Positions 22,025 through 42,336 of a DNA stretch of 47,660 nt are shown here, piece after piece. The DNA lies in the NCBI GenBank assembly GCA_947626145.1, contig CANQRB010000013.1, forward strand, positions 1 through 47,660. Reading direction: 5' to 3'. Origin of the DNA: an uncultured Clostridia bacterium (GTDB lineage: Bacteria; Bacillota; Clostridia; UMGS1883). The notes beneath the pieces are model-generated. The model made no database searches. It had not been told where the DNA came from and saw only the letters and a list, made by a program, of their open reading frames with translations. Position numbers and translations under genes: made by a program. Numbering within the stretch: position 1 is the stretch's first letter; every line of letters begins with the position of its first letter.

Positions 22025-22078
22025 ATAATTATAGGGATGTGAAATATCCAAATAAATTTGCAAGGAGGAACACAACAC

Positions 22079-24856: not shown

Positions 24857-25438
24857 TCAGTCCAGTTCGACGGTGACCTTTTTCAGGTAGTCCAGCACGT
24901 CGTCACCGAATTTGCCGGAATCGCCGTGCTCTATCATCTGAAGCGCCTCGTCACAGTTGACGCCGTGGCGGTAGATGCGGTCAAAGTACAGGGCGGCGAA
25001 AACGTCGCATATGGACACCACCTGAACGTAGAGTGGTATATCCGTAATATGCTCGTAGCCGCTGCCGTCGATGCGCTCGTGGTGATAGCGGCAGATGTTC
25101 TTCACAATCTCCCGCTCGTCGTCGTCCAGCTCATCCTTTATCATCTCGTAGCCGTATTTAGCGTGGGATTTTATGTTCTGCTTTTCCTCGGGGGTGAGAG
25201 GGCCCGCCTTGGTAAGTATGAAATTCCTTATCCCCAGCTTGCCGATGTCGTGGAGCAGCGCCCCCTTGCATATCTGGGCCACCTGCTCGGGACTGTAGCT
25301 TGTATAACCCTCGCTGTTCATCTTACGTATCATCTTTGAGGTGAGCTCCTTCACATTGATGCAGTGATAATAGGTCTCGGCGCTGTTTATTCGGAGCTCT
25401 TCCATCAAATTGCGCAGTCCATCGGTCATTTTTATCAT
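24857..25438 (-). CDS. Stand-alone HD-GYP-like domain protein
   Basis: A 193-aa cytoplasmic protein made of one HD-GYP-like domain. HDIGKLGI supplies the HD pair and Lys, SHAKYGYEM the next His, and HHERIDGSGY the third motif. The terminal Pro of GYP is Glu here, so c-di-GMP hydrolysis is plausible but not certain. ATG at 25438 overlaps the stop of the glycosyltransferase gene (ATGA) and has GGAGAGG 6 bases upstream; an ATG at 25453 would overlap that site. Position inside an exopolysaccharide operon that begins with other c-di-GMP genes supports a role in local turnover or sensing of that messenger. Confidence 0.8.
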   Translation of the reverse strand: MIKMTDGLRNLMEELRINSAETYYHCINVKELTSKMIRKMNSEGYTSYSPEQVAQICKGALLHDIGKLGIRNFILTKAGPLTPEEKQNIKSHAKYGYEMIKDELDDDEREIVKNICRYHHERIDGSGYEHITDIPLYVQVVSICDVFAALYFDRIYRHGVNCDEALQMIEHGDSGKFGDDVLDYLKKVTVELD

Positions 25439-26379
25439 GATTTGCCTCTCCATCTCGCCGCGAATATCCGGCGCACAAGGGCGGCCGGCATCATAAGCAG
25501 CGCAAAATTAATTAATCTGTCCTTCACGGCCACAGAGGGCCCGGTCTCGGCGAAGGCGCGGAAGGCCTCCCTCCTCCGCCCGTCAATAATATAGTGACGG
25601 CAGCGGCGCATGGTGAACCAGTCCATTACCTTCCTGAGGTTTTCCCGCTTTTGGGCGGGAATGGTCTCGTCCGCGTACAGGGCCTTTACCCCCTCGAAAA
25701 AGCCCCAGTCGGGGTCAAAGGAGCGATCCTTTGTGGCGGTGCTGTTGACCTTCTTATAGGTGGCGGTGTTCTTTTTTGTCAGGGCCACGGGAAAATAGGC
25801 CGCCACCCGCAGATCCATCTCCAGATCCTCGCCTATTTTGCAGCCCACGGGGAAGCCGCCGGTCTTTTCCATGGCCTCACGGGTGACGCAGGTGCTGACG
25901 GGGGTAAAAATCTTCACCGTCTTATCCCTGTGATACTCACCCAAAAAGTCCTCGAGAAAAACGTCCTCTCCCGTCCGGTTCCGGAAGTAATCGTACTCCG
26001 TCTGTATCTTGCCGTTCACCATCTCCACCCGCACGGCGGAGGCGTAGAGCCCCGCTCCGGGGTATTTTTTTATCAGCTTCCGCATGGTCTCGAGGTGGTC
26101 GGCGTCCCACACGTCGTCGGCGTCCAGAAAGGCATAGTAACCGTACCTTGCCAGTGACATGGCCTTGTTCCTGGCGGCGGAAACACCGGCGTTGGGCTGG
26201 GAATAGACCCTTATCCGTCCGTCGCCCTCATATTTTTTCAGCACCCCGAGGGTGTCGTCCGTCGAACCGTCGTTGACGATGACGATTTCCCATTCCTTTT
26301 CGGTCTGGGCCAAAACGCTTTTCACCGCACCGTCAATGCAGTGTGCGCCGTTATATACCGGTATAATGACCGAGAACAA
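25435..26379 (-). CDS. Glycosyltransferase family 2
   Basis: A 314-aa GT-A-fold glycosyltransferase. The nucleotide-sugar site begins SVIIPVYNGAHCIDGAVKSV, followed by IVNDGSTDDT; the metal motif is AFLDADDVW (about 93-101). The C-terminal part is basic with hydrophobic patches, suggesting membrane association. TTG start at 26379 with GGGAGGG 7 bases upstream. Part of the exopolysaccharide operon: 16 bases after the polymerase gene and coupled by a 4-base overlap to the HD-domain gene. It would add one sugar of the repeat unit; donor and linkage are unknown. Confidence 0.88.
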   Translation of the reverse strand: MFSVIIPVYNGAHCIDGAVKSVLAQTEKEWEIVIVNDGSTDDTLGVLKKYEGDGRIRVYSQPNAGVSAARNKAMSLARYGYYAFLDADDVWDADHLETMRKLIKKYPGAGLYASAVRVEMVNGKIQTEYDYFRNRTGEDVFLEDFLGEYHRDKTVKIFTPVSTCVTREAMEKTGGFPVGCKIGEDLEMDLRVAAYFPVALTKKNTATYKKVNSTATKDRSFDPDWGFFEGVKALYADETIPAQKRENLRKVMDWFTMRRCRHYIIDGRRREAFRAFAETGPSVAVKDRLINFALLMMPAALVRRIFAARWRGKS

Positions 26380-26395: not shown

Positions 26396-27757
26396 CTAAA
26401 TAAAGTAAAGCATCATAAAGGTCCAGTCAACGAAGAAGTCCACCGACAGGCCGAAAAAGATGAACGTGAAGGGGAAAATTATCTTAAGTATCTCAAGATC
26501 CTCGTCCTCGTAGCCGGGCCTGGCCGCGAAGTGCCGCAGCAGCTTGACAAAGAACACCGCGAACAGGGGGATATAGATAAACAGCGCACCTAAAATACCG
26601 AAGTTCAAAATACTCTGGATATACGAGTTGTGGCAGGCTATTGAGAACACCGTCTTGTCTATGAAATCCACGGTTACAACGCTGCCGCCGATGATCTGAC
26701 CCCAAAGGGCCTTGTTGGAAAAGATGGCCAAGGCGGTCTCCCAAATGCCGGTGCGTCCGGTGGTGAGCAGGTCCCAGCGTCCCTGGGACATATAGGCCAG
26801 CTTTTCGTTGAAGCGTATCAGCAGGCCGGCGATGGCGTCGATCTGTCTGAACTGAGGTATGGAGAACAGGATCAGCAGCGTCACGCTTATGCCCACAAAG
26901 GCAAAGACCAGTATAAAGAAGGCCTTTTTCCTGTATTTGAGTATTATCAGCAGCACCGTCAGGGTGAGGAGGGTCAGCAGGGCGGAAAGGCTGGCCGTCT
27001 GAAGTATCATGACGCCGAACAGCCCCAAAAATGCCAGCCGCAGCAAAAGCGGGATCTTTTTCAGCGTCAGGGTACAGATTATGCACAGGCTGTAGAACAT
27101 ACCGGCGAAATTGGCGTCACTGAGGGCGCCGAAGTTACGGCTGACCTTGTGGACGCCTGCGCCCGCAACGTTGATGTTCTTGGTGAACACGTCGCTGGCC
27201 CAGCCGTAAACGCCCGAGACCACGCCTCCCAGCAGGAACACGAAGAAGAACTTCCGCAGGAGCTTCGGGTCGTTGACCATCCTGCACATGAGCACGTAAA
27301 TCAGCACGCAGTCAACTATTACGTTAAGGCCCTCTTTCACTCCAACGACGGGTATCATGGCGAAAACGCTGTGCAGGAAGAACACGAACAGGGCAGGCAG
27401 ATAGGCCACGTTGAACTTGAGCTTCGGCATATCCAGCAGGAACCTCAGTGCCAGCAGATAACGGTATATACGGAAGGCCGGAATGTCCGACGTGAGCATC
27501 AGCCTGTAGCGCAGATAGATGAACAGCGCCATATAGAGGTAAAAGTTCTCGTCGCCGAAGCTTATCACAACGCAGACCAGAACGGCCACCGAAAACCACG
27601 TGGTAAGATCGGGAAAAACGCCCGAAAGGAGACAGAAAACAAAGCCCAGCACAAAAACAACGTCGTTGAGCTTTCTGACCCAGGGCTTCTTAAGCCAGGC
27701 AAATCTTTCCTTTGTGCCAATTGGGTTTATATTCATCAGTCCGGCTTCGGCTTCCAA
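26396..27757 (-). CDS. O-antigen ligase/polymerase-like (Wzy-type) membrane protein
   Basis: A 453-aa protein with about ten to twelve membrane helices and a large extracytoplasmic loop (about 295-345, containing SQGRWDLLTTGRTGIWETAL), which is the layout of the Wzy_C/O-antigen ligase family. RTGIWETA is close to the conserved RxxxW motif of that family. It would polymerise lipid-linked repeat units outside the membrane. TTG start at 27757 with AGGAGGG 6 bases upstream. It lies between GT4 and GT2 genes in the operon. No Wzx flippase was found in the window, so the flipping step must be encoded elsewhere or done differently. Confidence 0.82.
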   Translation of the reverse strand: MEAEAGLMNINPIGTKERFAWLKKPWVRKLNDVVFVLGFVFCLLSGVFPDLTTWFSVAVLVCVVISFGDENFYLYMALFIYLRYRLMLTSDIPAFRIYRYLLALRFLLDMPKLKFNVAYLPALFVFFLHSVFAMIPVVGVKEGLNVIVDCVLIYVLMCRMVNDPKLLRKFFFVFLLGGVVSGVYGWASDVFTKNINVAGAGVHKVSRNFGALSDANFAGMFYSLCIICTLTLKKIPLLLRLAFLGLFGVMILQTASLSALLTLLTLTVLLIILKYRKKAFFILVFAFVGISVTLLILFSIPQFRQIDAIAGLLIRFNEKLAYMSQGRWDLLTTGRTGIWETALAIFSNKALWGQIIGGSVVTVDFIDKTVFSIACHNSYIQSILNFGILGALFIYIPLFAVFFVKLLRHFAARPGYEDEDLEILKIIFPFTFIFFGLSVDFFVDWTFMMLYFI

Positions 27758-27774: not shown

Positions 27775-28995
27775 TTACAGAATTTCGTCTATCATTTTGT
27801 CAAACGCGCTTATTTCCCGCTCGTTGCCATAATCTGTATTTTGCACGTTTCGTTTCAGTATATCAAGAACGCCCGGGTCCCGAAGGAGCTTTTTCAGCCC
27901 CTGATACAGGGCCTCGTCGCTGTTGTCAAACACAAGACCGTCCACCCCGTCCCGTATCTGTTCCCGGGCGGAGGCGTATTCGGTAACTATTGGCGGCAGC
28001 CCCATCATATAGCCCTCAGTAACGGCCATGGGCTTGCCCTCGTACCGTGAGGGCAGAAAAAAGGCGTCGCACTTTTTCATATAGGGAATCGGGTTGTCCC
28101 TGACCCCTATGGGGAATATGTTTTTTTCAAGACCGGCCGCGGCGATCATTTCCTTAAGCTTATCCATATCGCGGCCGCCGCCGATTATGAGCCAGCGGAC
28201 ACGGTCGGTCAGGCCCTCGCCCTTCAGGCGGGCAAAGGCGGTCACGGCCCGGTCGTGGCCCTTATGCTCAAAGCTTACGCGGGCCACGGTCACCAGCTTG
28301 AGGCAGTCCTCCCCGACGTCAAAGGGCAGCTCGGCCTCATACTCATCGCCCCGATCCCGCACATAGGCGGAGGTCAGGAGGTTTGGTATGAAAAAGCACT
28401 TTCCCCTGTGCTCGGGGTGAGCCCGCAGATGGTCGGCCATGACCTTCTCGCTGACAAAGACCATGGCGTCGGATTTGTCGAAGCACTTCCTGTCCACGCG
28501 GTAGTCCAGACCGCGCTTTTCGTACTCTATATGGTGCCAAAGCACCTTTTTGCGGGCCTTGACCCGGGTCATGATATAATTCATGCACCAGTTCAGCTCA
28601 TAGGCCACGGCCACATCGTATTCTCCGTCCAACGGACGGGAATACCGACAGCCCTGACGGGACATTATCTGTACGGCCCGGGGCTTGTTGTGGCGGACAT
28701 AGCGGTAATACACATATTGTAACCGCGCCAGGGCGTAGGAGGGCGACAGAGCCTTGCTCAGCACGTTGCCGGGGCTGTATTTTTCATGCACCATGCCCTG
28801 AGGGATAATGTTTATCTCTTCCTTTATGCCGTAGCGCCGGTTGGGGTCGCTCTCGTAGAACATCAGATCCACGTCGTAGCGGCCGGTATCAAGGGCGTTG
28901 ACAAAGTTCACCAGCGAGGTCATGGCCCCGCCTATGTGGGCCTGAACAAAGCAGATCAGGAGCCTTATTTTCTTCTCCCCGCCCGATGTATTCAT
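27775..28995 (-). CDS. Glycosyltransferase family 4 (GT-B)
   Basis: A 406-aa GT-B glycosyltransferase. The N-terminal half starts KIRLLICFVQAHIGGAMTSL (acceptor side). The C-terminal nucleotide-sugar domain has LVTVARVSFEHKGHD and FFLPSRYEGKPMAVTEGYMM, the latter containing the E-x7-E retaining motif of GT4. ATG start at 28995. Exopolysaccharide operon member, 18 bases after the GT2 gene. It would add a sugar with retention of configuration. Confidence 0.9.
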   Translation of the reverse strand: MNTSGGEKKIRLLICFVQAHIGGAMTSLVNFVNALDTGRYDVDLMFYESDPNRRYGIKEEINIIPQGMVHEKYSPGNVLSKALSPSYALARLQYVYYRYVRHNKPRAVQIMSRQGCRYSRPLDGEYDVAVAYELNWCMNYIMTRVKARKKVLWHHIEYEKRGLDYRVDRKCFDKSDAMVFVSEKVMADHLRAHPEHRGKCFFIPNLLTSAYVRDRGDEYEAELPFDVGEDCLKLVTVARVSFEHKGHDRAVTAFARLKGEGLTDRVRWLIIGGGRDMDKLKEMIAAAGLEKNIFPIGVRDNPIPYMKKCDAFFLPSRYEGKPMAVTEGYMMGLPPIVTEYASAREQIRDGVDGLVFDNSDEALYQGLKKLLRDPGVLDILKRNVQNTDYGNEREISAFDKMIDEIL

Positions 28996-29013: not shown

Positions 29014-30006
29014 CTATTTTCTCAATGTGAACATCCGTCCGGCTATGACCGCGCTGTACGGGACAACGTAAAACGCGGTGTACATGAGCCGCTGTTTGAG
29101 GGGCATTCCCCTGCGCAGTATCATTTTGGGGAAATTTTCCCGATATATCCTCATATACTCACCGCTGACGCAGGCCTCGTCCCGATCCTGCCGGGGGAGG
29201 TACATCTGCTCGCAGTAGCGCAGGATTATGTCCCGGCATATCTTCTCCCGGGCGCGCATGACCTGAAGCGGCCGGCCCTCCTTCTCGAAAAAGGCGGCCC
29301 GCCCCTCGTAGGCCCGCAGGTAGTCATAGCGGTGGGGATTGTTCTTCATCCGCCGGGCTATGTCGTCCATAATGCTGGAGCCGCGCTGGAAGTAGTAGTA
29401 CAGCTTTTCTGTGGTTATAGCCACCCGTCCGGCCCTGTATACCGCCCGATATGTCACGAACTCGTCCTCGTTGAGCATACCAAGCGGATAATACAGGTCG
29501 CGGAAGGTCCCCACCCGATATATTTTGGAGTGGGCCTGAGAACGCAGCTCGTACCCCAAAAGGGCGGTCTCGGCGTCCGTGACGGTGACCGCGGGCTCCG
29601 GGGCGGCGGGAGAAAATCCGCCGCCCGAGCCCTTTTCGTAGCCGCACTGAGCCACCCCGCAGGCCCGCTCCTCACAGAGGGACATGAGCCGACGGGCAAA
29701 GTCGGGGTGGACATAGTCGTCCGAGTCCACAAAGGCGATGAAGTCCGTGTCCTCCGCTTCCTCCATCACCAGCCGCAGACCGGCGTTGCGGGCGTCGGAC
29801 AGGCCGCCGTTCCTCTTGTGTATGACCCTTATTTTTTCAGATTTTTCCGCGTAACCGTCACAGATGGCCGGACAGCCGTCGGGCGAGCCGTCGTCCACGA
29901 GAACTATCTCTATGTTCTCATAGCTCTGACCCAGAACCGAATCGACGCAGCGCCGGAGGTACTCCTCCACCTTGTACACGGGTATTATGAAGTAAAGCTT
30001 TTTCAT
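29014..30006 (-). CDS. Glycosyltransferase family 2
   Basis: A 330-aa GT-A enzyme: LYFIIPVYKVEEYLRRCVDS at the N-terminus, VLVDDGSPDGCP and FIAFVDSDDYV (metal DxD). A long basic C-terminal region resembles WaaV/EpsJ-type transferases. I take ATG at 30006 because the family begins there; a GTG at 30030 overlaps the stop of the preceding gene by 4 bases and could instead be used for coupled translation. Member of the exopolysaccharide operon. Confidence 0.88.
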   Translation of the reverse strand: MKKLYFIIPVYKVEEYLRRCVDSVLGQSYENIEIVLVDDGSPDGCPAICDGYAEKSEKIRVIHKRNGGLSDARNAGLRLVMEEAEDTDFIAFVDSDDYVHPDFARRLMSLCEERACGVAQCGYEKGSGGGFSPAAPEPAVTVTDAETALLGYELRSQAHSKIYRVGTFRDLYYPLGMLNEDEFVTYRAVYRAGRVAITTEKLYYYFQRGSSIMDDIARRMKNNPHRYDYLRAYEGRAAFFEKEGRPLQVMRAREKICRDIILRYCEQMYLPRQDRDEACVSGEYMRIYRENFPKMILRRGMPLKQRLMYTAFYVVPYSAVIAGRMFTLRK

Positions 30007-30026
30007 TGTGTGTCCGTTCCGGCGGA

Positions 30027-30902
30027 TCACTCCGCCTCGAGCTTGACCAGCACCACCTCGGGCGGGTTGAGGAACCGCACCTTGTCGGTGTTCTGATCAC
30101 AGCCGCCGCTGACTATCATGGCCGCGCCGTCTCCCTCTTTGAAATAACCGTAGTCATACTTGGGGAAGTAGGTGTTTTTTCCCGCCTCGCCCGTGTCCTG
30201 ACCTATCAATCCGCCCACAAAGGGCAGCCGCACCACGCCGCCGTGGAGGTGGCCGGCCAGTATCAGGTCGCCGCCGCAGTCCTTGATGTTGGGGTAAAGG
30301 TCGGCCCGGTGATTGAGCACCACTGTAAAGACGGACGGGTCGGTTATCTCCTCGGAGATCTCCTCCCTGACCTTGTCTATCTGCTCCTGAGAGAGGACGT
30401 CGGACTTGGGATCCTTCGCGCCCACCAGCTGGATGGACTCGCCGTTCTTTTCGATAGTGACGCTGTCGTTCTCAAGGGGAATGGCCCCGTTGCCCCAAAG
30501 GCGGCCCATGATGTTATCATAATCCTGATTCTGGCTTTCGTGGTTGCCGGAGACCGCGTACAGGGACGTCATGTTCCGCACCGCCTTGGTTATCTTCGAG
30601 GCCTCGTCCACGTTGTAGTAGGGGAGCTGAACCATGTCGCCGGTAAAGACCACAAGATCCGGCTCCTGATTTCTTATGTGCTCGATTATCTGATCCGAAA
30701 AGGGGGCGTTGTGCAGGTCGGATATAACCATTATCCTGTAGCCGTCAAAGCTCTGAGGTATCTCGGGATGGCTGAACGTATATTCCGTCAGTCTGACCGT
30801 GTCGTTCATTCTGTCGTTGACGGTAAGAATGACGACGCAGATCAGAATCAGAGCGCAGACAACTATCAAAAGCCACTTCACGATGTTCAAAAAAACCCTC
30901 AC
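30027..30902 (-). CDS. Membrane-anchored metallophosphoesterase
   Basis: A 291-aa calcineurin-like phosphoesterase with one N-terminal membrane helix (about 7-28). Metal motifs appear in order: VISDLHNAPF, VFTGDMVQ, AVSGNHES and LAGHLHGGV. It belongs with the YkuE/YaeI-type group, some of which act on lipid-phosphate substrates. GTG start at 30902 with GGGAGGAG. It sits between the Wzz-EAL gene and a glycosyltransferase gene; a role in recycling the polyprenyl phosphate carrier or trimming phosphodiester-linked groups is an inference from position. Confidence 0.85.
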   Translation of the reverse strand: MRVFLNIVKWLLIVVCALILICVVILTVNDRMNDTVRLTEYTFSHPEIPQSFDGYRIMVISDLHNAPFSDQIIEHIRNQEPDLVVFTGDMVQLPYYNVDEASKITKAVRNMTSLYAVSGNHESQNQDYDNIMGRLWGNGAIPLENDSVTIEKNGESIQLVGAKDPKSDVLSQEQIDKVREEISEEITDPSVFTVVLNHRADLYPNIKDCGGDLILAGHLHGGVVRLPFVGGLIGQDTGEAGKNTYFPKYDYGYFKEGDGAAMIVSGGCDQNTDKVRFLNPPEVVLVKLEAE

Positions 30903-30921: not shown

Positions 30922-33117
30922 TTAAATTTTTTCAGGCTTGCCGTAATAGTAGCCCTGCTTGTAATCGAAGCCCGTCTTGGCGACAATATTGTCCTGAGAC
31001 CGCTTCTCTATGCCGCAGATACAGGTCTTGATGCCGTTCTTGTGGCACTTGTCGATAATATCCGAGAAGTAACCCAGCATATTCATGGTGGCCTCCACCA
31101 CGTCCTCGTCGGAGGTGGCGTACATATCGGAGTTCAGTATGTCCAAACTCATCTTTATGTAGCCGGGCTTTACGACATTGATGATCTCCTGCTCCTCGTT
31201 GGAGTTCTCGAACCGGTCGATGCAGATGCCGATGCCCATCTCGTCCAGAAGCATGATGTCGTCCAGAGACTCGGCTATATCCTTACCGGTGAGCTCAAGG
31301 CAGATATTCTTGGCGGGAATATCATTGTCGGTAATGTGCTTGAGAATTATGTCATTGAGAGCGAAGTCATTGACCTGAGAGTAGGGGCAGTTGATGTGTA
31401 CCACGGGCATGGGCTTATGCTGCTTACGCAGGGCGGCCAGATCCTCGCAGACGCTCTTGATTATCCAGTCGTTAAGCTGGCGGTAAATGCCGAAGTCGCC
31501 CACGCACTCAAAGATCTTACCGGGCGAAACAAGGCCCAAAGTGGGGCTCTGCCACCGGATGAAGGCCTCGCTGTGAGGCTCGTCGCCGGGCTTGCAGGGC
31601 ACCATTTTCTGGTACACAAGGAAGAACTCGCTGAAGCCCTTGCGGAACTGATCGTAGAGCAGATGATGGGTCTCGTCCAGCTCCTCGCTGTCGCCCGATT
31701 CCTCCTCCTCGCCGTTGAGGGCAGCCCTCTTGGCGGCAAGGCGGCGGGTTATCTCGGCGATAACAACGGCCACGATGGCGATGCCCATGGCCAGCACAAA
31801 CAGGAAAATGGCCACGATGGAAACGGGGATGTCGGCCTTTACCTCGGGAAGGATAAGGTACTGGAGGTCGGTGTTGACAAGAGAGTCATAGAACTCATCG
31901 ATGGAGGTGTTGGCTATTTTGCTGTACTCCTTGGAAAGATCGACTATCTCCTTGAGTATGCTCTCGTTCTTCTTGATCAGGGTGTTTTTCACGTCCTGAG
32001 GAACGGTGTCGTTGACATAGGAGTCAATGATCATGTTATAGTTGTCGATCTCACGGACAGCATTGGAGGCGTTGCTGGCGTAGTCGGTATAGCTGAGGAT
32101 AATGTCGTCGTAGGTGTTGGTGTAATCCTCAAGATCCTTGTCCTCGATAACGTCCTGATCGCGGTTGTTGGAGGAGTCCACGTTCCTCTGCACCTGCTCG
32201 GCCTGACGGTAAAGTCCGGCGGCCTTGTAGGAGTCGTAGAAGGTGGTTATCTCTTCGCGGTAGTTCTCGGAAACGGGGTAGTCAACGCTCCAGTCCTGCC
32301 AGAGCTCATTGACCCGGGCGCGGTAGCTCTTTATGACCATTTCCCTATCCTTGGCCAGATTGCCGGCCCGAATGTTGCCGTAGTACTTGGCGTACTGGAT
32401 GTCCCGCAGATCCTCATACATATCGGACAGCTCGGAGAAGGTGTAGCCCGTCTTGCCGGAGCGGAAGTCCGGATAAGTGCCCGCGAGGGTGTCCAGATTT
32501 TCGATTATGCTGTCAAGGCTGTTGCTGAGCTTGTCGGCCACAACTATGTACTCGGCGTCCACGTCCTCAATGACCTTGGCAAAGTCCTCCACGTTTTTCT
32601 TGTTGTAATACTTGGAAAGAAGGTACTCGTCGTACTCGTTTACGATATTGCTGAATATACGGGCGCCGAACTCGTCGCCGAGGGAAGCCTTGTAGGTGAG
32701 CTTCATCTCGTATTCGGTGGCGGCCACGTCATACTTTTCGCCCAGCATGGCCGCGGACTCGGAAACCTCCTGATCCAGATCGGTCACTACCTTGTTGATG
32801 GCGATATTCTGACGGATGCCCTTAACCGCGTCGGCGTTGCTGTTGAGGCCCATATCCTTCAGGGCCGCCTGAATGACGACGGGGTTCTGGATCTCATAGG
32901 GGTCCAGCTTGCTGACGCCGTCGGGGGCAAGGCCGGTGGCGGCGCCTTCGTGGTTGTACTTGAAGCCCAGAGTACAGGTATAGGTCTGCACCATGGACGC
33001 AACCAGCACGCCCACCAGCGCCACGGCGATGGAAAGCGCCAAAATCTGGAGGAAATGCTTGCGGACGATTTTGGCCATGTCGCTTATACTGAGAAATCCC
33101 AATTCAATAAGTCCCAT
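30922..33117 (-). CDS. Wzz-like chain-length protein fused to a degenerate EAL domain
   Basis: A 731-aa fusion. TM1 is about residues 24-46; a periplasm-facing helical region (about 47-425) resembles Wzz/Wzc-type polysaccharide co-polymerases; TM2 is about 430-455 (SIVAIFLFVLAMGIAIVAVV). An acidic linker leads to an EAL-like domain (about 495-731). EAL motifs are altered: EAF for EAL (about 516), the Asn of INCP and Glu of LELTGKD are kept, DDFG is DRFE (about 633), the K-x-D Asp is Ser in IKMSL (about 653), AEGVE is CICGIE (about 700), and QGYYYGKP is kept. Loss of metal ligands suggests a c-di-GMP receptor, not an enzyme. ATG with GAGGGGG; 3 bases after the second Wzz-like gene. Confidence 0.82.
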   Translation of the reverse strand: MGLIELGFLSISDMAKIVRKHFLQILALSIAVALVGVLVASMVQTYTCTLGFKYNHEGAATGLAPDGVSKLDPYEIQNPVVIQAALKDMGLNSNADAVKGIRQNIAINKVVTDLDQEVSESAAMLGEKYDVAATEYEMKLTYKASLGDEFGARIFSNIVNEYDEYLLSKYYNKKNVEDFAKVIEDVDAEYIVVADKLSNSLDSIIENLDTLAGTYPDFRSGKTGYTFSELSDMYEDLRDIQYAKYYGNIRAGNLAKDREMVIKSYRARVNELWQDWSVDYPVSENYREEITTFYDSYKAAGLYRQAEQVQRNVDSSNNRDQDVIEDKDLEDYTNTYDDIILSYTDYASNASNAVREIDNYNMIIDSYVNDTVPQDVKNTLIKKNESILKEIVDLSKEYSKIANTSIDEFYDSLVNTDLQYLILPEVKADIPVSIVAIFLFVLAMGIAIVAVVIAEITRRLAAKRAALNGEEEESGDSEELDETHHLLYDQFRKGFSEFFLVYQKMVPCKPGDEPHSEAFIRWQSPTLGLVSPGKIFECVGDFGIYRQLNDWIIKSVCEDLAALRKQHKPMPVVHINCPYSQVNDFALNDIILKHITDNDIPAKNICLELTGKDIAESLDDIMLLDEMGIGICIDRFENSNEEQEIINVVKPGYIKMSLDILNSDMYATSDEDVVEATMNMLGYFSDIIDKCHKNGIKTCICGIEKRSQDNIVAKTGFDYKQGYYYGKPEKI

Positions 33118-33120
33118 TTT

Positions 33121-34566
33121 TTACGCCCCCTCTTTACTCATGGTTTCTTTTATGTCGTCAATGAGCTTCTTCTTGCGTCTGAGCTTCCGGCTGTCGGAAA
33201 CGGAGCTGATGAATACCGCGGCGATGAAGGCCAGCACCGCGCCAAGAGCGAACACCAGACCCAGCCTTATGAGAAGGGCGGGGGTGATCAGGTTCATTCT
33301 GGATATTTTGGCGGTGAGGTATTCCTCGTTGACGCTGTTGAAGTACTCCTCGACCACCACGCGGGCGGTGCGGGTGAGCTCCTTATACTCGTCCTCGAAC
33401 TCGTCGATAAGCTCGTCGCACTTCGCGTTGAGCCGGCTGAGCTCCTCGGGAGTCTGCTCAGCGTTGGTGTAGGACTGGAGCTCCGTCTGGAACTGGCTGA
33501 TCCTGGCGGCGTGCTCGGCAAGGCTGGTGTCGGCCTTGTGCTTCTGCTCAACAACGGTGTCGAAGGCGGTCTTGGGACGTGCCTGATAGAGGCCGTAGGT
33601 CTCGTTCTGGATAACGTTTATCAGGTTCTCGGTAAAGGTCTGGTCGTAGTTGTTCATGGCGAACTGGTTTATCTGAGACCGATCCGCGTACTTGTTGCTC
33701 CTGAGGGAGTAGTTCTCGATATTGACCTTGAGCTTGTTGGAGGCCTGATCCACGTCCTTGGATATGCCGGAGGACTCAATAAAGTCGGAGATGCCGTCTA
33801 TCCTGTTGGAAACAAGGAAGTCATACTTGCCCTCGATGTCCTTAAGGGTGTAGTTGTCAAAGGACACAAAGTCGGGGGATTTTTTGCTGAGATAGTCCAG
33901 ATAGAAGGAGATAATCCTTATTTTTGTTCTGTAAACCCTCAGCTTCTCGCTGTAGTCATAGTTGTCGGCGCCCTTGATCTCGGTCAGGTTCTTAAAGCCG
34001 TCGATGCCGCCCTGCTCCTCCGCCAGACGTACGCGGTTGACCTCGAGGAGAGCCCGCAGGAAGTCGCGGCTATAGTCCTTGCTCAGGAACTTGCGGATAA
34101 AGTTGCTGTCCTTGTAGTCGTGGGGCTGGGTGAATGTTATGCGGTACTCGTTGGCCACATAGCTGAAGTCGTTGCCCTCGCTGCGGACGGAGGACACGGT
34201 GTCGCCGGCGGAATTTTCCAGATAGCTGGAAATGTCAAAGCTGTTCCGCAGGTCGGCAACGGTGAAGTTCTTGTACTTGTCGTTGCTGTTCATGATGTCG
34301 AGGGCCGCCGCGATATTCTCGTCGCTGATCAGATCGTAATAGGTGAAGCGGCTGCCGTCGGGCCGTCTGGACTGGGCAATTTCGGGATAATTCAGCACAA
34401 CGTCGGCTTTGGCCGCGGCGTAGCCGTTATACGCGTAGTACAGAAAGTAGCCCAGGGCGGATATCAGGCCCACAACGGCCATCAGCAAAATGAAGCCGCG
34501 GAATTTGGTGGCCCGGCCTTTGTAGATGACCCTTTTGAGGTTCTTTACCCCTTTCATTTTCTTCAT
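33121..34566 (-). CDS. Wzz-like polysaccharide co-polymerase
   Basis: A 481-aa protein with TM1 at about 25-46 (FILLMAVVGLISALGYFLYY), a long extracytoplasmic helical domain with coiled-coil stretches (about 310-400) and TM2 at about 430-453, then a short basic tail. This is the layout of chain-length determinants. It lacks the Pro-rich TM2 motif of classical Wzz and a BY-kinase domain. Its start overlaps the stop of the glycosylphosphotransferase gene (ATGA), and it is followed 3 bases later by the Wzz-EAL gene, so the two are probably made in equal amounts and may form a mixed complex. Confidence 0.75.
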   Translation of the reverse strand: MKKMKGVKNLKRVIYKGRATKFRGFILLMAVVGLISALGYFLYYAYNGYAAAKADVVLNYPEIAQSRRPDGSRFTYYDLISDENIAAALDIMNSNDKYKNFTVADLRNSFDISSYLENSAGDTVSSVRSEGNDFSYVANEYRITFTQPHDYKDSNFIRKFLSKDYSRDFLRALLEVNRVRLAEEQGGIDGFKNLTEIKGADNYDYSEKLRVYRTKIRIISFYLDYLSKKSPDFVSFDNYTLKDIEGKYDFLVSNRIDGISDFIESSGISKDVDQASNKLKVNIENYSLRSNKYADRSQINQFAMNNYDQTFTENLINVIQNETYGLYQARPKTAFDTVVEQKHKADTSLAEHAARISQFQTELQSYTNAEQTPEELSRLNAKCDELIDEFEDEYKELTRTARVVVEEYFNSVNEEYLTAKISRMNLITPALLIRLGLVFALGAVLAFIAAVFISSVSDSRKLRRKKKLIDDIKETMSKEGA

Positions 34567-35966
34567 TGTTTTACTTCCTCCTTTGCGGCCTTTGCCACAG
34601 TTTTTTTCTTGAAATCGTCCTCGCCCTCGGACGCCGCTTTCAGGAACATGGTCTTTGTGGTGAGAAGGATTATTTTAAAATCAAGAAGCAGAGAATAGTG
34701 GGTTATATAGAACAGGTCGTAATATGTCCTGTCATATATGTAGGTGGAGTACCGTCCGTACACGTGGGAGAGGCCCGTGAGCCCCGCCTTTACCTCAAAG
34801 CGGTAGTCGTAATATTCGATCTCTTTTTCAAACTGCTCCACGAACACCGGACGCTCGGGCCGGGGGCCCACAACGCTCATGTCGCCCTTGAGGATATTGA
34901 TTATCTGGGGCAGCTCATCCAGCCGGCAGGCCCGCAGGAGCTTACCGATAGGTGTGATGCGGGGGTCGTGCTTTTCGGCGAATTTTGGCCCGCTGAGCTT
35001 CTCGGCGTCCGGTATCATGGTGCGGAACTTGTATATCTCAAATTCCTTTTTGTGCCGCGTCAGCCGCACCTGCTTGTAAAACACCGGCCCGGGGGAGGTT
35101 ATCTTGATGGCCAGGGCGATGACCGCCATGGGTATCGCCGCCAGCACCAGCCCGACGGAGGCGATGATTATATCCATGACCCGCTTCAGGAACAGATCCA
35201 CCTTGTTAAGGGATCTTTTCGGCATATACAGGGTGAGTATGTCGTCAAAGAGAACTATTCTGGCGTTGGTCCTGCCCGCGTCGATAATCTTCGGCACGAT
35301 GAACAGATCCTTGTTCAGCTCCGTGGCCGCCGCCACCGCCGCGTCGTTGTCCTTGTCGGGCAGGTCGGTGAAGATGCAGATGGCGTCAAAAAGGGGAAAG
35401 CTGTCCTTGATGAAGCGGTTCAGCTCCTCGGAGGTCATATCCGCCACGTCCTCGTACCAGGCGTCGTAATTGTTCAGCACGCCGTACTTTATCTTCTTCA
35501 TCCGGGGGAAATTCTTTTCACCGGAGTCGATTATGAGCAGGCTGGGCTTTTTGTACCTGGTCTCGTCGTCAAAGTGCCTCATCATCAGTACGTCGGAGGC
35601 AAACACCGCCGCCACTTTGACGAACAAAAGCACCAGATCCGCCAGGAACTGATCCAGAGACATGAAGAAGATCAGGTTCACAATTCCCATTATGAAGAAG
35701 GTGTACACCGCGGCCAGGGCCGTCATTACGAATTTTTCGTACAGGCCCGAAACCACCAGCATATACTTCTCCAGCAGGTACATGAAAATCATCATGCCTC
35801 CGCAGTCGGCTATGTACAGCAGCGCCACCGCGCGGCTGCCAATGGAGGCGCTGTCCGACCGGATAATAAAGGCCAGTACCAGAACCGCCAGCAAAACCAC
35901 GGCGTTGCAGAAAAGCTCGTACCTGCACTCGTTGCGGGGATTGCGCACCTTGAGTCCGTTATGCAT
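34563..35966 (-). CDS. Polyprenyl glycosylphosphotransferase (priming enzyme)
   Basis: A 467-aa WcaJ/PssY-like initiating sugar-phosphate transferase, which loads the first sugar phosphate onto undecaprenyl phosphate. Four to five N-terminal membrane helices (about 18-140) precede a CoA-binding-like cytoplasmic region. The catalytic domain begins near 265: KRVMDIIIASVGLVLAAIP, ITSPGPVFYKQVRL, FEIYKFRTM and the signature GDMSVVGPRPERP. ATG at 35966 with GGAAAGAG. It is 4 bases after a GT2 gene and coupled to the first Wzz-like gene. This gene marks the operon as exopolysaccharide or capsule synthesis. Confidence 0.93.
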   Translation of the reverse strand: MHNGLKVRNPRNECRYELFCNAVVLLAVLVLAFIIRSDSASIGSRAVALLYIADCGGMMIFMYLLEKYMLVVSGLYEKFVMTALAAVYTFFIMGIVNLIFFMSLDQFLADLVLLFVKVAAVFASDVLMMRHFDDETRYKKPSLLIIDSGEKNFPRMKKIKYGVLNNYDAWYEDVADMTSEELNRFIKDSFPLFDAICIFTDLPDKDNDAAVAAATELNKDLFIVPKIIDAGRTNARIVLFDDILTLYMPKRSLNKVDLFLKRVMDIIIASVGLVLAAIPMAVIALAIKITSPGPVFYKQVRLTRHKKEFEIYKFRTMIPDAEKLSGPKFAEKHDPRITPIGKLLRACRLDELPQIINILKGDMSVVGPRPERPVFVEQFEKEIEYYDYRFEVKAGLTGLSHVYGRYSTYIYDRTYYDLFYITHYSLLLDFKIILLTTKTMFLKAASEGEDDFKKKTVAKAAKEEVKQ

Positions 35967-35970
35967 AAAA

Positions 35971-36819
35971 TCACTCTTTCCGTAGCAGCTTTTCCTGAAG
36001 CATGCGAAAAACCTTGGAAAAAATTATTATATAGGGCCTCATACGTGTCAGAAGCCTGTAAAAGGGAGTGTCGATCCCCCAGCCGGGCAAAGCCTCGGCC
36101 ATATAGCGGGCCACGCTGCGGTTGGCCGCCAGCTTCTCTCTGAAGCCCAGGCCGCTGCCGGTCAGCGAGGTCTCGCCCCTGACATAGTGATAAAGCACCT
36201 TATCCACGAAGCAAAAGCTTTGGACGTTTTTAAAGACGCCCACGGAAAACTTCAGATCCTCCGCCGTCCTGAGGCCGGTGTCAAACTTAAGTCCTCCGAT
36301 AACCGAATTTTTGATGAGCTTCATGCAAACATGGTTCATGTTGATGCCCGTCATCATTTTTATGTACACCTTTTTCAGCTCCGGCCCCCGAAGCACCGCG
36401 CCGCCGGGGAAAACTCCCCTTGGGGCGAAGGATCTTCCGCCGGGGAAGTCGAAAACATACCGGCACTGGATCACGTCGCAGTCCGTTTCCCGGGCCCGGG
36501 TGATCAGGGTCTCGAGCATATCTGCCTCCCAAAAGTCGTCCGAGTCCAGAAAGGCCGCGTACTCCGCCGTCAGCCGCTCGAGGGCAGCGTTACGGGCGCC
36601 GGCGGCGCCGGAATTGATCTCCCGCTCGATACACACGAAGCGGGGATCCGAGCGGGCGTACTCCCGCATTATTTCAAGGCTGCCGTCGGGTGAGGCGTCG
36701 TCCACCATCAGGGCCTCCCAATTTGTAAAGGTCTGGGCCTTCAGGCTGTCGAGACACTTCCGCAGCCCTTTTTCGGCCTTATACACAGGTATTATGACCT
36801 GTACCTCCGCTCCTGACAC
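35971..36819 (-). CDS. Glycosyltransferase family 2
   Basis: A 282-aa GT-A enzyme: VQVIIPVYKAEKGLRKCLDS, MVDDASPDGSLE and AAFLDSDDFWEA (DxD). GTG start at 36819 close behind GAGG. It is the first polymer-synthesis gene of the operon, 29 bases after the sensor kinase gene, with no promoter visible between them, so signalling and synthesis genes appear to share one transcript. Confidence 0.88.
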   Translation of the reverse strand: MSGAEVQVIIPVYKAEKGLRKCLDSLKAQTFTNWEALMVDDASPDGSLEIMREYARSDPRFVCIEREINSGAAGARNAALERLTAEYAAFLDSDDFWEADMLETLITRARETDCDVIQCRYVFDFPGGRSFAPRGVFPGGAVLRGPELKKVYIKMMTGINMNHVCMKLIKNSVIGGLKFDTGLRTAEDLKFSVGVFKNVQSFCFVDKVLYHYVRGETSLTGSGLGFREKLAANRSVARYMAEALPGWGIDTPFYRLLTRMRPYIIIFSKVFRMLQEKLLRKE

Positions 36820-36848: not shown

Positions 36849-39398
36849 TTATTCCTTAAGTATGTTCTGTATGGTTTCCATGAGCACCCGCACATTGATC
36901 GGCTTGGAAATATGGCCGTTCATGCCGCTTTCCAGAGCCTTTTTCCTGTCCTCGTCAAAGGCGTTGGCGGTCATGGCGAGAATGGGTACCGACGACAGGG
37001 CCGGATCGTCCAGGGCCCTGATGGCCCTCGCGGCGGCGTAGCCGTCCATCACCGGCATCTGTATATCCATGAGTATGAGCTCGTAATATCCCGGCGCCGA
37101 AGCGGAGACCTTTTCCACCGCCTCGGAACCGTCGGCGGCAGACTCCACCGCGAAGCCGCTTTCGGTCAGCAGCTCCTCGGCTATTTCCCGATTAAGCTCG
37201 TTGTCCTCCACAAGGAGTATGCGCTTGCCCTTCACCTCGTCGGAGACCTCCGGAGTCGAAGGCTCATCCTTCCTGCCGGAGGCGGACACCGCGTCCACAA
37301 GGGTGTCTCTCAGCTCCGAGATGAACAGGGGCTTGCTGCAAAAGGCGGTCACACCGGCCTCTCTGGCCTCATCCTCAAAAGAGCTCCAGTCATAAGCGGT
37401 GAGGATAATGATGGGCACATCCGGGCCCACTATCCTCCGGAGCCTGCGCACAACCTCGATGCCGCTCAGATCGGGCAGGGACCAGTCCACCACAAAGATG
37501 CGGAACCGGTCGTCCATCTCCACGGCCTGTTTGGCCCGCAGCACCGCCTCGAGACCGTGAAGGGTCCATTCGGCGCGGAGGCCTATGCGCATGAGCATTT
37601 TGGAAACGCTGTCGCAGGTTTCGTAGCTGTCGTCCACCACAAGGGCTCTCTGGCCCTCCAGCTCCTTGATAATGTCCACCTGTCTGGGGTGGTTCACAAG
37701 GCGGAACTGAAGGTTGATTATGAACTCGGTGCCCTTGCCCTGCTCGCTCTCGACCTTGATCATGCCGCCCATGGCGTCCACGATGTTCTTGGCGATGGGC
37801 AGGCCCAGTCCGGTGCCCTGTATACCGCTGACGGTGGAGGTCCGTTCCCGTTCAAAGGGCTCAAAGACCTTTTCCAGGAATTCCGGAGCCATGCCTATGC
37901 CGGTGTCCTTTATCCTGATCTCATACGAGCCGTAGCCCTTGGGCGCCGAGCGCCCCTGCCTTATGGTGAGGGACACGGAGCCGCCTGAGGGGGTAAATTT
38001 GATGGCGTTGCTCAGTATATTCAGCAGCACCTGATTCAGATGCAGCTTGTCACAGTAAATATCCTCGTCCACGACGTCTATGGTGTCCATGAAAAAGCTG
38101 AGCTGCTTGGTGTGCATCTGGGACTGGATTATGTTGCGCATATCCCGGAAGATGTCGGAGATATTGCACTCCTTTTCCTCGATGTGGAGCTTACCGCTCT
38201 CGATGCGGCTCATGTCCAGCACGTCGTTGATAAGGCTCAGCAAATGCTCGCTGGAGGAAAGTATCTTGGTGAGGTATTCCTGCACCCGATCCCGATTGTC
38301 GATATTGCTGCGGGCCAGGGTGGTAAAGCCGACGATGGCGTTCATGGGCGTCCGTATGTCGTGGGACATATTGGAGAGAAACATGGTCTTGGCGCGCTCG
38401 GCCGCCTCGGCCTTTTTCAGCCTTTCTGAAAGGACAGCCTGTTCGACGGCGCTGTTCATGACCTTGCGCGAGTTGCCCAGCACCCACAGATAGTAGGCGG
38501 CCACGGCGATGGCGATGAGGGCGGCCACGATGAGCAGCACTCTCTGTACGTCATAAAGATTGGCCAGAGCCACCTTCCTTGGCACCGAAACGGCGATCTC
38601 CCAGTTGTTCACATCCGAGGGGGCGTAGTAAAGGTACAGCCAGTCCCCCTTGTCTATCGGCTCAAACAGGCAGTAGCCCGTGCCGCCGGAGAGGAGGGAA
38701 TCGACCATTTTTTCCCACGGGCCGCCGACCTTGACCCGGCGCGGAGCCATATCGCTTATGTTGGTCAGCTCCTCATGCCAGGTGTCCATGATAAAGTCGC
38801 CGCTGGCCCGGTCAATTATGTATATGCTGGCGCTGGCGTTATATATGTTGTCTATGTTCATGGTCTTGGGCAGCTCGGAGAGAACGGTGACCCCGTAGAG
38901 CAGCGCCGCGACCCTGCCGTCCTGTTCAATAGGCACAAAATGGCGCAGCACCTCGGTTCCGCTGCCGGTAATGCTCCGGGAACGGCCGGTAATATGCTCG
39001 CCAAGCTTGACCTCCTCGTCGAAGGACAGGTCGGATTCTATTTCATCTATTTTTTCTCCGTCGGGAGATATGACCGTATTGTCCGGCAGCAAAATATGTA
39101 TGCGGCTGGTGGTCATAAGGGGCGAGACGGCGCTCACCATACTTTTAAGGGCGTCCTGATCGAAGTCGTCCACGGTGGAAAGGAAATCCTTGGTGGCGTT
39201 CAAAATACGGCTGTCGCGGCTGAGCTTGTTGCCCAGCTCCTCCACGGCGGTCCTTGCGCCCTCCTCCATACGTTCTATGCAGCGCTGCTCCATCAGGATG
39301 CTTATCTGAACATAACCATAGGAAAAGATGATCGCGATAACAAGGATTATCACGACCGTGGCAACAAGGCTTGCGTCATGTCTGCGCGCCCTCTTCAT
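36849..39398 (-). CDS. Hybrid sensor histidine kinase with two receiver domains
   Basis: An 849-aa membrane kinase. TM1 about 12-35, an extracellular sensor of about 250 residues resembling a double Cache domain (YIIDRASGDFIMDTWHE), TM2 about 290-312. HisKA has the phospho-His near 346 (FLSNMSHDIRTPMNAIVGF); HATPase has NILSNAIKFTP, DTGIGM and GTGLGLPIAK. Two receivers follow: Asp near 637 (VVDWSLPDLSG) and near 778 (LILMDIQMPVMDG). No HAMP domain. ATG at 39398 has GGGGAG 8 bases upstream. With the nearby free Hpt and REC-HD-GYP genes it forms a complete His-Asp-His-Asp relay. The signal is unknown; Cache domains usually bind small molecules. Confidence 0.93.
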   Translation of the reverse strand: MKRARRHDASLVATVVIILVIAIIFSYGYVQISILMEQRCIERMEEGARTAVEELGNKLSRDSRILNATKDFLSTVDDFDQDALKSMVSAVSPLMTTSRIHILLPDNTVISPDGEKIDEIESDLSFDEEVKLGEHITGRSRSITGSGTEVLRHFVPIEQDGRVAALLYGVTVLSELPKTMNIDNIYNASASIYIIDRASGDFIMDTWHEELTNISDMAPRRVKVGGPWEKMVDSLLSGGTGYCLFEPIDKGDWLYLYYAPSDVNNWEIAVSVPRKVALANLYDVQRVLLIVAALIAIAVAAYYLWVLGNSRKVMNSAVEQAVLSERLKKAEAAERAKTMFLSNMSHDIRTPMNAIVGFTTLARSNIDNRDRVQEYLTKILSSSEHLLSLINDVLDMSRIESGKLHIEEKECNISDIFRDMRNIIQSQMHTKQLSFFMDTIDVVDEDIYCDKLHLNQVLLNILSNAIKFTPSGGSVSLTIRQGRSAPKGYGSYEIRIKDTGIGMAPEFLEKVFEPFERERTSTVSGIQGTGLGLPIAKNIVDAMGGMIKVESEQGKGTEFIINLQFRLVNHPRQVDIIKELEGQRALVVDDSYETCDSVSKMLMRIGLRAEWTLHGLEAVLRAKQAVEMDDRFRIFVVDWSLPDLSGIEVVRRLRRIVGPDVPIIILTAYDWSSFEDEAREAGVTAFCSKPLFISELRDTLVDAVSASGRKDEPSTPEVSDEVKGKRILLVEDNELNREIAEELLTESGFAVESAADGSEAVEKVSASAPGYYELILMDIQMPVMDGYAAARAIRALDDPALSSVPILAMTANAFDEDRKKALESGMNGHISKPINVRVLMETIQNILKE

Positions 39399-39449
39399 CA
39401 AGCCAACTCCCCTTTTCCTTTAAATATGTCATGTATGCCGTCGTCCCGC

Positions 39450-40580
39450 CTATACATCCGAGAACACCTTGGCGCCCTCTTTATAGCGGTTGAGGGACAA
39501 ATTGTGCTTGCCGTTGCGCTTGGCCTCGTAAAGAGCCGCGTCGGCCTGACAGAATATGGCGTCGAAGCCCTCCACCTTCTGATCCTTGATCAGCAGGGCG
39601 CCCACGGAGCAGCCCACCTGTACGTCGAGCTTTTCCTTCGACTCCCGGGCTATGGTGCGTCCGGTGTCAAGGCACCTCTCACGCAGCTCCGACTCGCCGA
39701 TGGCCCTCGGAATAAAGACCATAAATTCGTCGCCGCCGAAGCGGGCGACCACGCCCATGGAACCGAAAACGCTCTTCATGGCGTCGCCCACGCACTGGAG
39801 AACCAGATCCCCCTTGTGGTGGCCGTAGGTGTCGTTTATCAGCTTGAAATCGTCCAGATCAAGGATGATCAGGGCGGCGGAAACCTTGGGGTTGTTCTGG
39901 GCCAGATGCTTTGATATCTGCTGCTGACAGCTCAGCTTATTGTAAAGATCAGGCAGCAGGGGATCGCGGCTGCTCATGAGCTCGTACCTCACCCGGCGGT
40001 CATACTCCTGTATGCGCAGGGACATGACTATGTGCCAGAGGGTGAAGGAAAAGCCCAGAGCGCACAGCGCCCTGAAAACATCGTGCTGCTTGATTATGAT
40101 GTCGTTCTTGAACAACAGAACCCCTATAATATAAATGACCTCATAGGAGCACACGATGCCGTAGGATATGTAAGTCTTAAGAACGAAGCACGACGGAAAA
40201 ATCACACATAGCAGCGCCATAAAGCTGGACGGCGCGTTCCTGTCGCTGAGCACGTCGATCAGCACAATGAAGGTAAAGACGATTATGCCGAAAGCGATGC
40301 ACAGCCCCGTGGCCAGCCTCGGACTGGGCTCGTTTTTCTTGCCGCATAAGGCCAGCACAACGCGGAAGGCCAAAATCACGGGCAAAAAGAGCACATGCCA
40401 GATAGAGGGCCTCCAGCCGTTTATGATGAACGGCGTCACCACAAGAAACATTACCAGAAGAACGATGGTCGCCGTGCAGCCCTGCTGGAGCGAGCGAATA
40501 TTATTTTTCGCGTTGTCCTTGGCCGCGGCCTTAAAGTATTCTTTTTTCCGGACCATATCGTTCCTGATGAAATCTATCAC
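39450..40580 (-). CDS. Membrane GGDEF diguanylate cyclase
   Basis: A 376-aa protein with five to six N-terminal membrane helices (about 32-205) and a C-terminal GGDEF domain that makes c-di-GMP from two GTP. The active-site loop is intact, ARFGGDEFMVFIP near 278-290, as are the DLDDFKLINDTYGH metal and GTP residues. The product-inhibition RxxD site is absent: FGSMGVVA stands where it should be, so no feedback inhibition is expected at that site. GTG start at 40580. It lies between the Hpt and sensor kinase genes. The membrane part is an unnamed sensor type. Confidence 0.92.
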   Translation of the reverse strand: MIDFIRNDMVRKKEYFKAAAKDNAKNNIRSLQQGCTATIVLLVMFLVVTPFIINGWRPSIWHVLFLPVILAFRVVLALCGKKNEPSPRLATGLCIAFGIIVFTFIVLIDVLSDRNAPSSFMALLCVIFPSCFVLKTYISYGIVCSYEVIYIIGVLLFKNDIIIKQHDVFRALCALGFSFTLWHIVMSLRIQEYDRRVRYELMSSRDPLLPDLYNKLSCQQQISKHLAQNNPKVSAALIILDLDDFKLINDTYGHHKGDLVLQCVGDAMKSVFGSMGVVARFGGDEFMVFIPRAIGESELRERCLDTGRTIARESKEKLDVQVGCSVGALLIKDQKVEGFDAIFCQADAALYEAKRNGKHNLSLNRYKEGAKVFSDV

Positions 40581-40619
40581 GGCGTTCCTGTCCTCCTCCC
40601 AAATATTTTATCCGAAATT

Positions 40620-41000
40620 TTACTGACAGTTGCTCTCAATGGCGCTGATTACCTTCTCATATTCCGGAGCGATGCGCTCCATAAACTCTCCGGCGCCCTT
40701 AAGATCGCCGTTGCGGATCATGCCGAGCTGCTCGGTAAAAAGATTGCCGAGTCTGGTTATCGACAGATTCAGACAAACTCCCTTGAGGGAGTGGCAGTTA
40801 AACTCGATGGCCTTTTTCGTCTCCTCGTCGGAGGCTCCCCCCTCGAGATCCTTTTGCAGCTCCGTATAATAGCTGACGCTGTTGCTGGGGAACTTTTTCA
40901 GAACCTTCGCCATCAGCCGTTCATTCCCCAGGAGCCTCTCCAGCGCCTCATCGACGTTGATGCCGGCATCCTCAAGGTTTTTCTTCATTGTCGCGTCCAT
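40620..41000 (-). CDS. Free-standing Hpt phosphotransfer protein
   Basis: A 126-aa helical protein with the Hpt signature FNCHSLKGVCLNLSITRLG; the phospho-accepting His is near residue 70. It would shuttle phosphate between the hybrid kinase's receivers and the REC-HD-GYP regulator. ATG at 41000 is preferred, with GGGAGGA 6 bases upstream; a TTG at 41006 is less likely. It is 17 bases after the regulator gene and 39 before the cyclase gene. Confidence 0.85.
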   Translation of the reverse strand: MDATMKKNLEDAGINVDEALERLLGNERLMAKVLKKFPSNSVSYYTELQKDLEGGASDEETKKAIEFNCHSLKGVCLNLSITRLGNLFTEQLGMIRNGDLKGAGEFMERIAPEYEKVISAIESNCQ

Positions 41001-41023
41001 AGTCAATCCTCCCTCAATCTAAC

Positions 41024-42307: not shown

Positions 42308-42336
42308 ATTTTACCACGTTCTCACCTTTATGTCAA
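42308..42336 (-). promoter_or_regulatory. Promoter of the 18-kb signalling/exopolysaccharide operon
   Basis: Minus strand TTGACA (42331-42336), 17-base spacer, TAAAAT (42308-42313). It is the only strong promoter I found for the fifteen leftward genes. Between 42337 and 42566 the sequence is AT-rich and holds nothing else I recognise. Confidence 0.8.

Follow-up and report, generated by a model that had tools for sequence, protein, structure and literature searches.

The window analysed here is a 47,660 bp stretch of DNA (positions 1 to 47,660 of the forward strand of contig CANQRB010000013.1, assembly GCA_947626145.1) from an uncultured Clostridia bacterium. Within its run of exopolysaccharide (EPS) genes there are two adjacent genes, here called A and B, that encode what look like divergent polysaccharide co-polymerases (PCPs) of the Wzz kind. 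B ends in an EAL domain that appears to have lost its catalytic function, and there is no gene for a bacterial tyrosine kinase (BY-kinase) beside the pair. The reading favoured here, which is given an even chance, is that A and B form a kinase-free heteromeric PCP that would be gated by cyclic di-GMP (c-di-GMP) through the tail of B.

Both open reading frames (ORFs) are on the minus strand, and the claim of an earlier note on this sequence that two Wzz-like proteins lie 3 bases apart is borne out (Table 1). A G-rich run resembling a ribosome-binding site is within the 3' end of A. By hydropathy, each protein has a stretch of ~380–400 residues, probably extracytoplasmic, with a hydrophobic segment at either end, and hydropathy and models together give both proteins the two transmembrane (TM) helices around a large extracytoplasmic helical domain that are seen in PCP/Wzz proteins. 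B alone of the pair has an EAL match (PF00563, E 1.2e-31, residues 497–728).

A and B are called Wzz-like because they are homologous to one another (hhalign 100%, E 2.3e-43, 391 columns), because the Pfam Wzz family PF02706 matches 7 of the 54 B-type proteins of the survey described below at E≤0.001, and because the AlphaFold model of A finds PCPs in the PDB, its nine best Foldseek chains being PCPs, including Wzc, with a best E of 1.7e-5 but TM-scores of 0.16–0.25. PF02706 itself matches neither A nor B of the window. For A and its relatives Pfam offers no convincing family, the best being LapA_dom, found in 6 of 13 members and placed over the second TM region in the A of the window. The list of PDB matches to the B model is filled by its EAL part (MorA and the EAL domain of FimX), and searching PDB sequences with the profile of PCP-B returned chance coiled-coil matches only. 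An iterated profile of classical Wzz took in nearly all A and B proteins, but drift is possible and this is not counted as proof. The assignment of A and B to the PCP fold class is made with moderate confidence.

A profile of the membrane part of B matched 54 of 391 genomes of the class and 7 of 398 genomes drawn from the phylum. Weak matches within the class (G174, G220, and G261, E 3e-4 to 1e-3) were not taken into the loci, and the matches from the phylum draw that are outside the class were not taken further. The locus set comprises the neighbourhoods of 52 places, the window, and 5 further loci, minus 3 duplicate contigs dropped before counting (L012, L014, and L015, which repeat the contigs of L115, L119, and L116, respectively) and 1 locus without a match; no pair is present at L111 (G045). 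This leaves 54 B-type and 48 A-type proteins; 48 of the former are paired in tandem with an A-type protein and 6 are single. A precedes B in 47 of the 48 pairs, the two genes are co-directional in all of them, and the intergenic gap is between -95 and +32 bp, bar one reversed pair. The tandem arrangement is more than chance and is no oddity of the window. One A-subunit ORF of 801 aa (L102:10136-12541, G214) also matches the GT2 profile, a possible glycosyltransferase-PCP fusion.

The tails of the B-type proteins fall, by Pfam, into 14 EAL, 20 GGDEF, and 20 that are neither (14 in pairs and 6 single). In the tree of B, made by a quick method (LG+G4), the EAL tail appears as one gain (14 rows, SH-aLRT 99) and the GGDEF tail as one gain in the sister lineage (20 rows, SH-aLRT 100). 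The A tree echoes the B tree. All 20 GGDEF tails of the sister lineage are without GG[DE]EF and without an RxxD I-site upstream of the GGDEF position. An intact stand-alone EAL gene (DDFG and CEG[IV]E) is present in 11 of the 20 loci with a GGDEF tail; these 11 belong to a single subclade of 13 members, and in another member (G022) EAL matches are found just outside the fetched stretch. In one B protein of 880 aa (L092:8678-11320, G173) the degenerate GGDEF is followed by a long polar stretch that is probably disordered.

In the EAL tail of the window, DDFG has become DRFE and AEGVE has become ICGIE. The second aspartate of DDFG and the glutamate of AEGVE, both features of catalytic EAL phosphodiesterases, are replaced in all 11 members of the window clade, the former by R, K, or Q and the latter by Cys, and the tail is for this reason probably a pseudo-phosphodiesterase. 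The glutamate of EAL, its arginine, N, the glutamate of ELTE, the first aspartate of DDFG, K, and Q are all kept. The wear in the active site is graded across the EAL lineage, with DDFG and AEGIE in the early-branching L090 and DNFG in L088 and L112. The tail is under purifying selection and is not a relic, since the ratio of nonsynonymous to synonymous changes (dN/dS) between the window and its closest relative, L118, is 0.076 in the tail, compared with 0.132 in the membrane part of B and 0.079 in A. Mean identity within the clade is 59% for the tail and 63% for the PCP part of B. The tail sits where Wzc carries its kinase and is plausibly a c-di-GMP receptor.

The genome from which the window comes is 95% complete and has one EAL domain (the tail of B), two GGDEF, three HD_5, and no PilZ. 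The window carries the sole EAL, one of the two GGDEF, and two of the three HD_5 (HD-GYP-like) domains. This gene run therefore contains the majority of the c-di-GMP genes that could be detected, as well as the one candidate receptor that the domain searches brought up, although receptors of other kinds and riboswitches are possible. A search for the c-di-GMP-I riboswitch gave no match in the genome and none in 14 control genomes, so that it is uninformative, and Rfam gave no matches to the window. Genes for a histidine kinase, an Hpt-like protein, a GGDEF protein, and an HD-GYP response regulator (36849-42115) lie ahead of the EPS genes on the same strand. Upstream regulators are also present in the relatives L115 (histidine kinase and GGDEF), L118 (histidine kinase), and L121 (GGDEF), and are absent from most.

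It might be that the dead EAL domain is a docking or dimerisation module that does not bind c-di-GMP and recruits a partner to the PCP ring, for example the transporter complex of the metallophosphoesterase, the polymerase, or another regulator. The ExLxR motif is credited with c-di-GMP binding in FimX and LapD in PMC12564702; in the window clade this site is ExFxR in 10 of 11 members (EAFIR in the window) and ETLIR in the other, which, with the two lost catalytic positions, would suit docking. The sister GGDEF tails, having lost both catalytic and I-site motifs, fit as well, and the strong constraint on the tail would suit an interaction surface too. Most of the other active-site residues are kept, however, and the gene run also encodes a GGDEF protein and has two HD-GYP-like genes, so that docking alone is considered unlikely, while being the alternative that survives best.

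The pair could also be an ordinary PCP-1-like chain-length regulator without cytoplasmic control, the tail then being a minor accessory of one lineage. Pairs without a tail, at 14 of the 48 loci, speak for this, but the constraint on the tail equals that on the rest of the operon and the EAL tail is present in 14 of the 14 members of its clade, which makes such a regulator improbable.

The earlier note had also stated that neither a BY-kinase nor a PHP/Wzb phosphatase accompanies the pair, and no match to a BY-kinase or a PHP phosphatase was found among the genes of the operon. The tyrosine kinase that characterizes PCP-2a and PCP-2b, either as a domain of the PCP itself or as the product of a neighbouring gene, is thus not seen here. 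Elsewhere in the genome there are four PF02706 Wzz matches and two BY-kinases that pass the TIGR01007 cut-off. There is also a fused Wzz-kinase gene, neighbouring one for a Cps4B-like PHP phosphatase. The cut-off of 108 bits is imperfect, as this fusion kinase scores 93. Of the four classical Wzz, three have a kinase next to them or as a fusion partner, an internal control indicating that the pairing usual in the Bacillota exists in this genome and is absent at the A/B operon. The lack of a kinase is therefore true of the operon and not of the genome; kinases of the wzd/wze type, for which the note had called for a search, and a PHP phosphatase do exist, each kinase with a classical Wzz of its own.

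The TIGR01007 survey covered 52 genomes, 46 with the pair and 6 with a single B-type protein, leaving out the pairs of L013 and L016. A kinase over the cut-off is present somewhere in 41 of the 52. Read from the match list, none of the 46 pair-bearing genomes has one on the contig of the pair, a test limited by fragmented assemblies, and 10 of the 46 have none over the cut-off anywhere (G273, G096, G173, G203, G087, G055, G354, G073, G214, and G350). Of these, G273 carries an EAL-tail pair, and G173 and G350 are single-contig assemblies. That the A/B pair is kinase-free at the level of the family is supported by these counts. At L107 and L108, single B-type PCPs without A occur in the vicinity of a gene for a CpsB-like PHP phosphatase, and the contig also carries a BY-kinase at a distance of ~24–26 kb, which may bring these loci nearer to the classical kinase-linked state.

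Were the pair a PCP-2b-like adaptor, it could borrow an unlinked BY-kinase (contigs C6 and C3) and the PHP phosphatase of the genome. Although both exist, every such kinase adjoins or is fused to its own classical Wzz, and with the 10 pair-bearing genomes that lack any kinase over the cut-off this leads to rejection of a borrowed kinase as the principal explanation, there being little likelihood in it. That the EAL domain is an active phosphodiesterase, lowering c-di-GMP locally at the EPS machine, has the clear EAL fold and Pfam score and the intact motifs of L090 in its favour, but is rejected for the tail, as every one of the 11 window-clade members has lost both catalytic positions, and is hardly credible.

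The favoured reading, of a kinase-free heteromeric PCP gated by c-di-GMP, starts from the gene order, the homology of A and B, the fold class (at moderate confidence), the lack of linked kinases, the catalytic loss and purifying selection in the tail, and the clustering of c-di-GMP genes. The paralogous A and B subunits would jointly build one membrane scaffold, a hetero-oligomer, for the Wzy-type EPS polymerase (the Wzy-like protein of the run). Below the membrane, the dead EAL tail would most likely bind c-di-GMP. The GGDEF protein would supply this messenger and the HD-GYP proteins would degrade it, all being encoded in this gene run and, in this reading, under a histidine-kinase phosphorelay. 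Binding may then alter how the tails pack beneath the ring, so that the polymerase is gated and polymerisation or chain length is switched or tuned. In the model reviewed in PMC12220298, it is phosphorylation of the Wzc tail that alters ring packing.

The suggestion in the earlier note that the EAL fusion may replace phosphotyrosine control with nucleotide control holds in part. The position of the tail, the selection acting on it, and the c-di-GMP genes clustered in the window all speak for it. Pairs that are kinase-free also occur without a tail (14/48) or with a degenerate GGDEF tail (20/48), however, so there has been no simple replacement of kinase by EAL; and as the EAL domain is predicted to be without phosphodiesterase activity, "nucleotide control" would be sensing and not turnover.

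Several observations count against gating of a heteromeric PCP by c-di-GMP. The structural models are modest, with a pLDDT of 73 for A and 66 for B, each built on a 6-row alignment. VIA-align of the A model with Wzc gives Z ~10 over 200–310 residues, mostly with large rmsd, but long helices make this Z non-decisive, and unrelated helical hairpins stand alongside Wzc in the same list. The alignment of the four classical Wzz of the genome compares only weakly with the B family (hhalign 27%) and the A family (16%). The ExLxR site has mostly become ExFxR, as described above. The absence of a tail from 14 of the 48 pairs, one of which (L114) is cut by a contig end, indicates that the pair does not require a tail. 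In the sister lineage, c-di-GMP sensing is not to be assumed of GGDEF tails that have neither GGDEF nor RxxD.

Table 1. The A/B gene pair and other features of the gene run in the window.
Feature	Position	Strand	Description and basis
A (PCP-A)	33121..34566	(-)	481 aa divergent Wzz/PCP-like membrane protein without C-terminal domain; ORF, hydropathy, model, homology to B
A TM segments	residues ~24-42 and ~435-453		hydropathy
A stop / B ATG gap	33118..33120	(-)	exactly 3 bases
B (PCP-B)	30922..33117	(-)	731 aa ORF, directly after A
B N-terminal region	31708..33117	(-)	residues 1-470; divergent Wzz/PCP-like membrane part
B TM segments	residues ~27-45 and ~434-452		hydropathy
B C-terminal EAL domain	30922..31683	(-)	residues ~479-731; predicted catalytically inactive; PF00563
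Promoter-like site TTGACA-17-TAAAAT	42308..42336	(-)	11/12, best in region, ahead of whole run
Response regulator with HD-GYP output	41024..42115	(-)	probable c-di-GMP phosphodiesterase; domain matches
Hpt-like protein	40620..41006	(-)	20.9 bits, below Pfam cut-off of 24.6
GGDEF membrane protein	39450..40580	(-)	probable diguanylate cyclase with its GGDEF motif intact; the genome has one other GGDEF match
Hybrid sensor histidine kinase	36849..39401	(-)	HisKA-HATPase-2 receivers; domain matches
GT2 glycosyltransferase	35971..36819	(-)	profile match
Polyprenyl glycosylphosphotransferase	34563..35966	(-)	initiating sugar transferase; PF02397; TIGR03025 over cut-off
Calcineurin-like metallophosphoesterase	30027..30902	(-)	membrane-anchored, 291 aa; PF00149 1.1e-12; one TM
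GT2 glycosyltransferase	29014..30030	(-)	profile match
GT4-type glycosyltransferase	27775..28995	(-)	profile match
Wzy_C/O-antigen ligase-like membrane protein	26396..27757	(-)	candidate polymerase; PF04932 32.7 bits, cut-off 31.7
GT2 glycosyltransferase	25435..26379	(-)	profile match
Small HD/HD-GYP-like protein	24857..25453	(-)	kept in EAL-tail operons of window clade
LicD-family protein	24034..24831	(-)	profile match

All of the genes from 42115 down to 24034 are on one strand with gaps of no more than 48 bp. The promoter-like site is a match to consensus only, in a region where 14 such sites were found and 8.3 expected. A Wzx-like flippase gene accompanies the HD and LicD genes in relatives such as L012, L117, and L122; neither the window operon nor its close relative L118 was found to have one. 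Adjoining the EPS genes on the opposite strand (22058-23914, plus strand) is a gene for a GH26-like glycoside hydrolase with a copper amine oxidase N-terminal-type domain.

The metallophosphoesterase gene is within 150 bp of the pair at 38 of the 48 loci; at L095 it directly follows the pair, but was counted as distant in this figure owing to an extended ORF start. In the EAL loci and the majority of the tail-less ones the gene lies downstream of B; in the GGDEF lineage its usual place is upstream of A. Its presence in EAL-tail, GGDEF-tail, and tail-less loci alike would suggest that it probably belongs to the core machine. The single N-terminal TM segment suggests an extracytoplasmic enzyme, which perhaps acts, as a guess, on a lipid-linked (pyro)phosphate. 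There were no matches to it among PDB sequences.

Alg44 is not known to have a Wzz-type fold. It is, like the A/B pair in the reading favoured here, a named co-polymerase under c-di-GMP control, but has a PilZ domain and belongs to the alginate system, according to PMC8461298. PssE of Listeria and PelD of Pseudomonas are similar in that a receptor is encoded within the EPS operon for post-translational control of EPS (PMC4125290 and PMC8461298); these are degenerate GGDEF proteins with an RxxD I-site, whereas here the candidate receptor belongs to the co-polymerase itself and RxxD is absent from the sister GGDEF tail. In FimX and LapD, a catalytically degenerate EAL domain is joined to a membrane or assembly machine (PMC12564702), while the tail of B, a candidate receptor, is fused to a co-polymerase and mostly has ExFxR instead of ExLxR.

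The closest comparison is with PCP-2a and PCP-2b (Wzc of E. coli, CpsC-CpsD of S. pneumoniae, and CapA-CapB of S. aureus), as defined in PMC12220298. These likewise have two TM helices round an extracytoplasmic helical domain and a cytoplasmic regulatory domain, and are encoded with Wzy-type EPS genes. The A/B system differs in being without a tyrosine kinase or a PHP/PTP partner, in having two paralogous subunits, and in having an EAL pseudo-enzyme at the place of the kinase. No recognisable description of a PCP/Wzz-EAL or Wzz-GGDEF fusion was found in the full text of open-licence PubMed Central (PMC) papers; the parts are of known kinds, but their combination looks new. More tentatively, at somewhat below an even chance, the pairs may represent a distinct class of PCP, an obligate A/B heteromer that has been kinase-free since the pair arose and that twice gained c-di-GMP-related pseudo-enzyme domains, EAL in one lineage and GGDEF in the other, at the spot where PCP-2 proteins have or bring in their kinase, with a second messenger, and not a phosphotyrosine cycle, gating Wzy polymerisation.

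Kinase-free control of the length of a Wzy-dependent polymer would be outside the phospho-cycling model of PCP-2. If a kinase has been naturally exchanged for a c-di-GMP-type domain in one and the same place, the cytoplasmic module would be shown to be a replaceable control input. Such an exchange would also mean direct post-translational control of the Wzy pathway by c-di-GMP in the Clostridia, of which the same open-licence papers gave no description. The domain at the end of B, in the place of a kinase, points to c-di-GMP, instead of phosphorylation, as the signal that may control this machinery.

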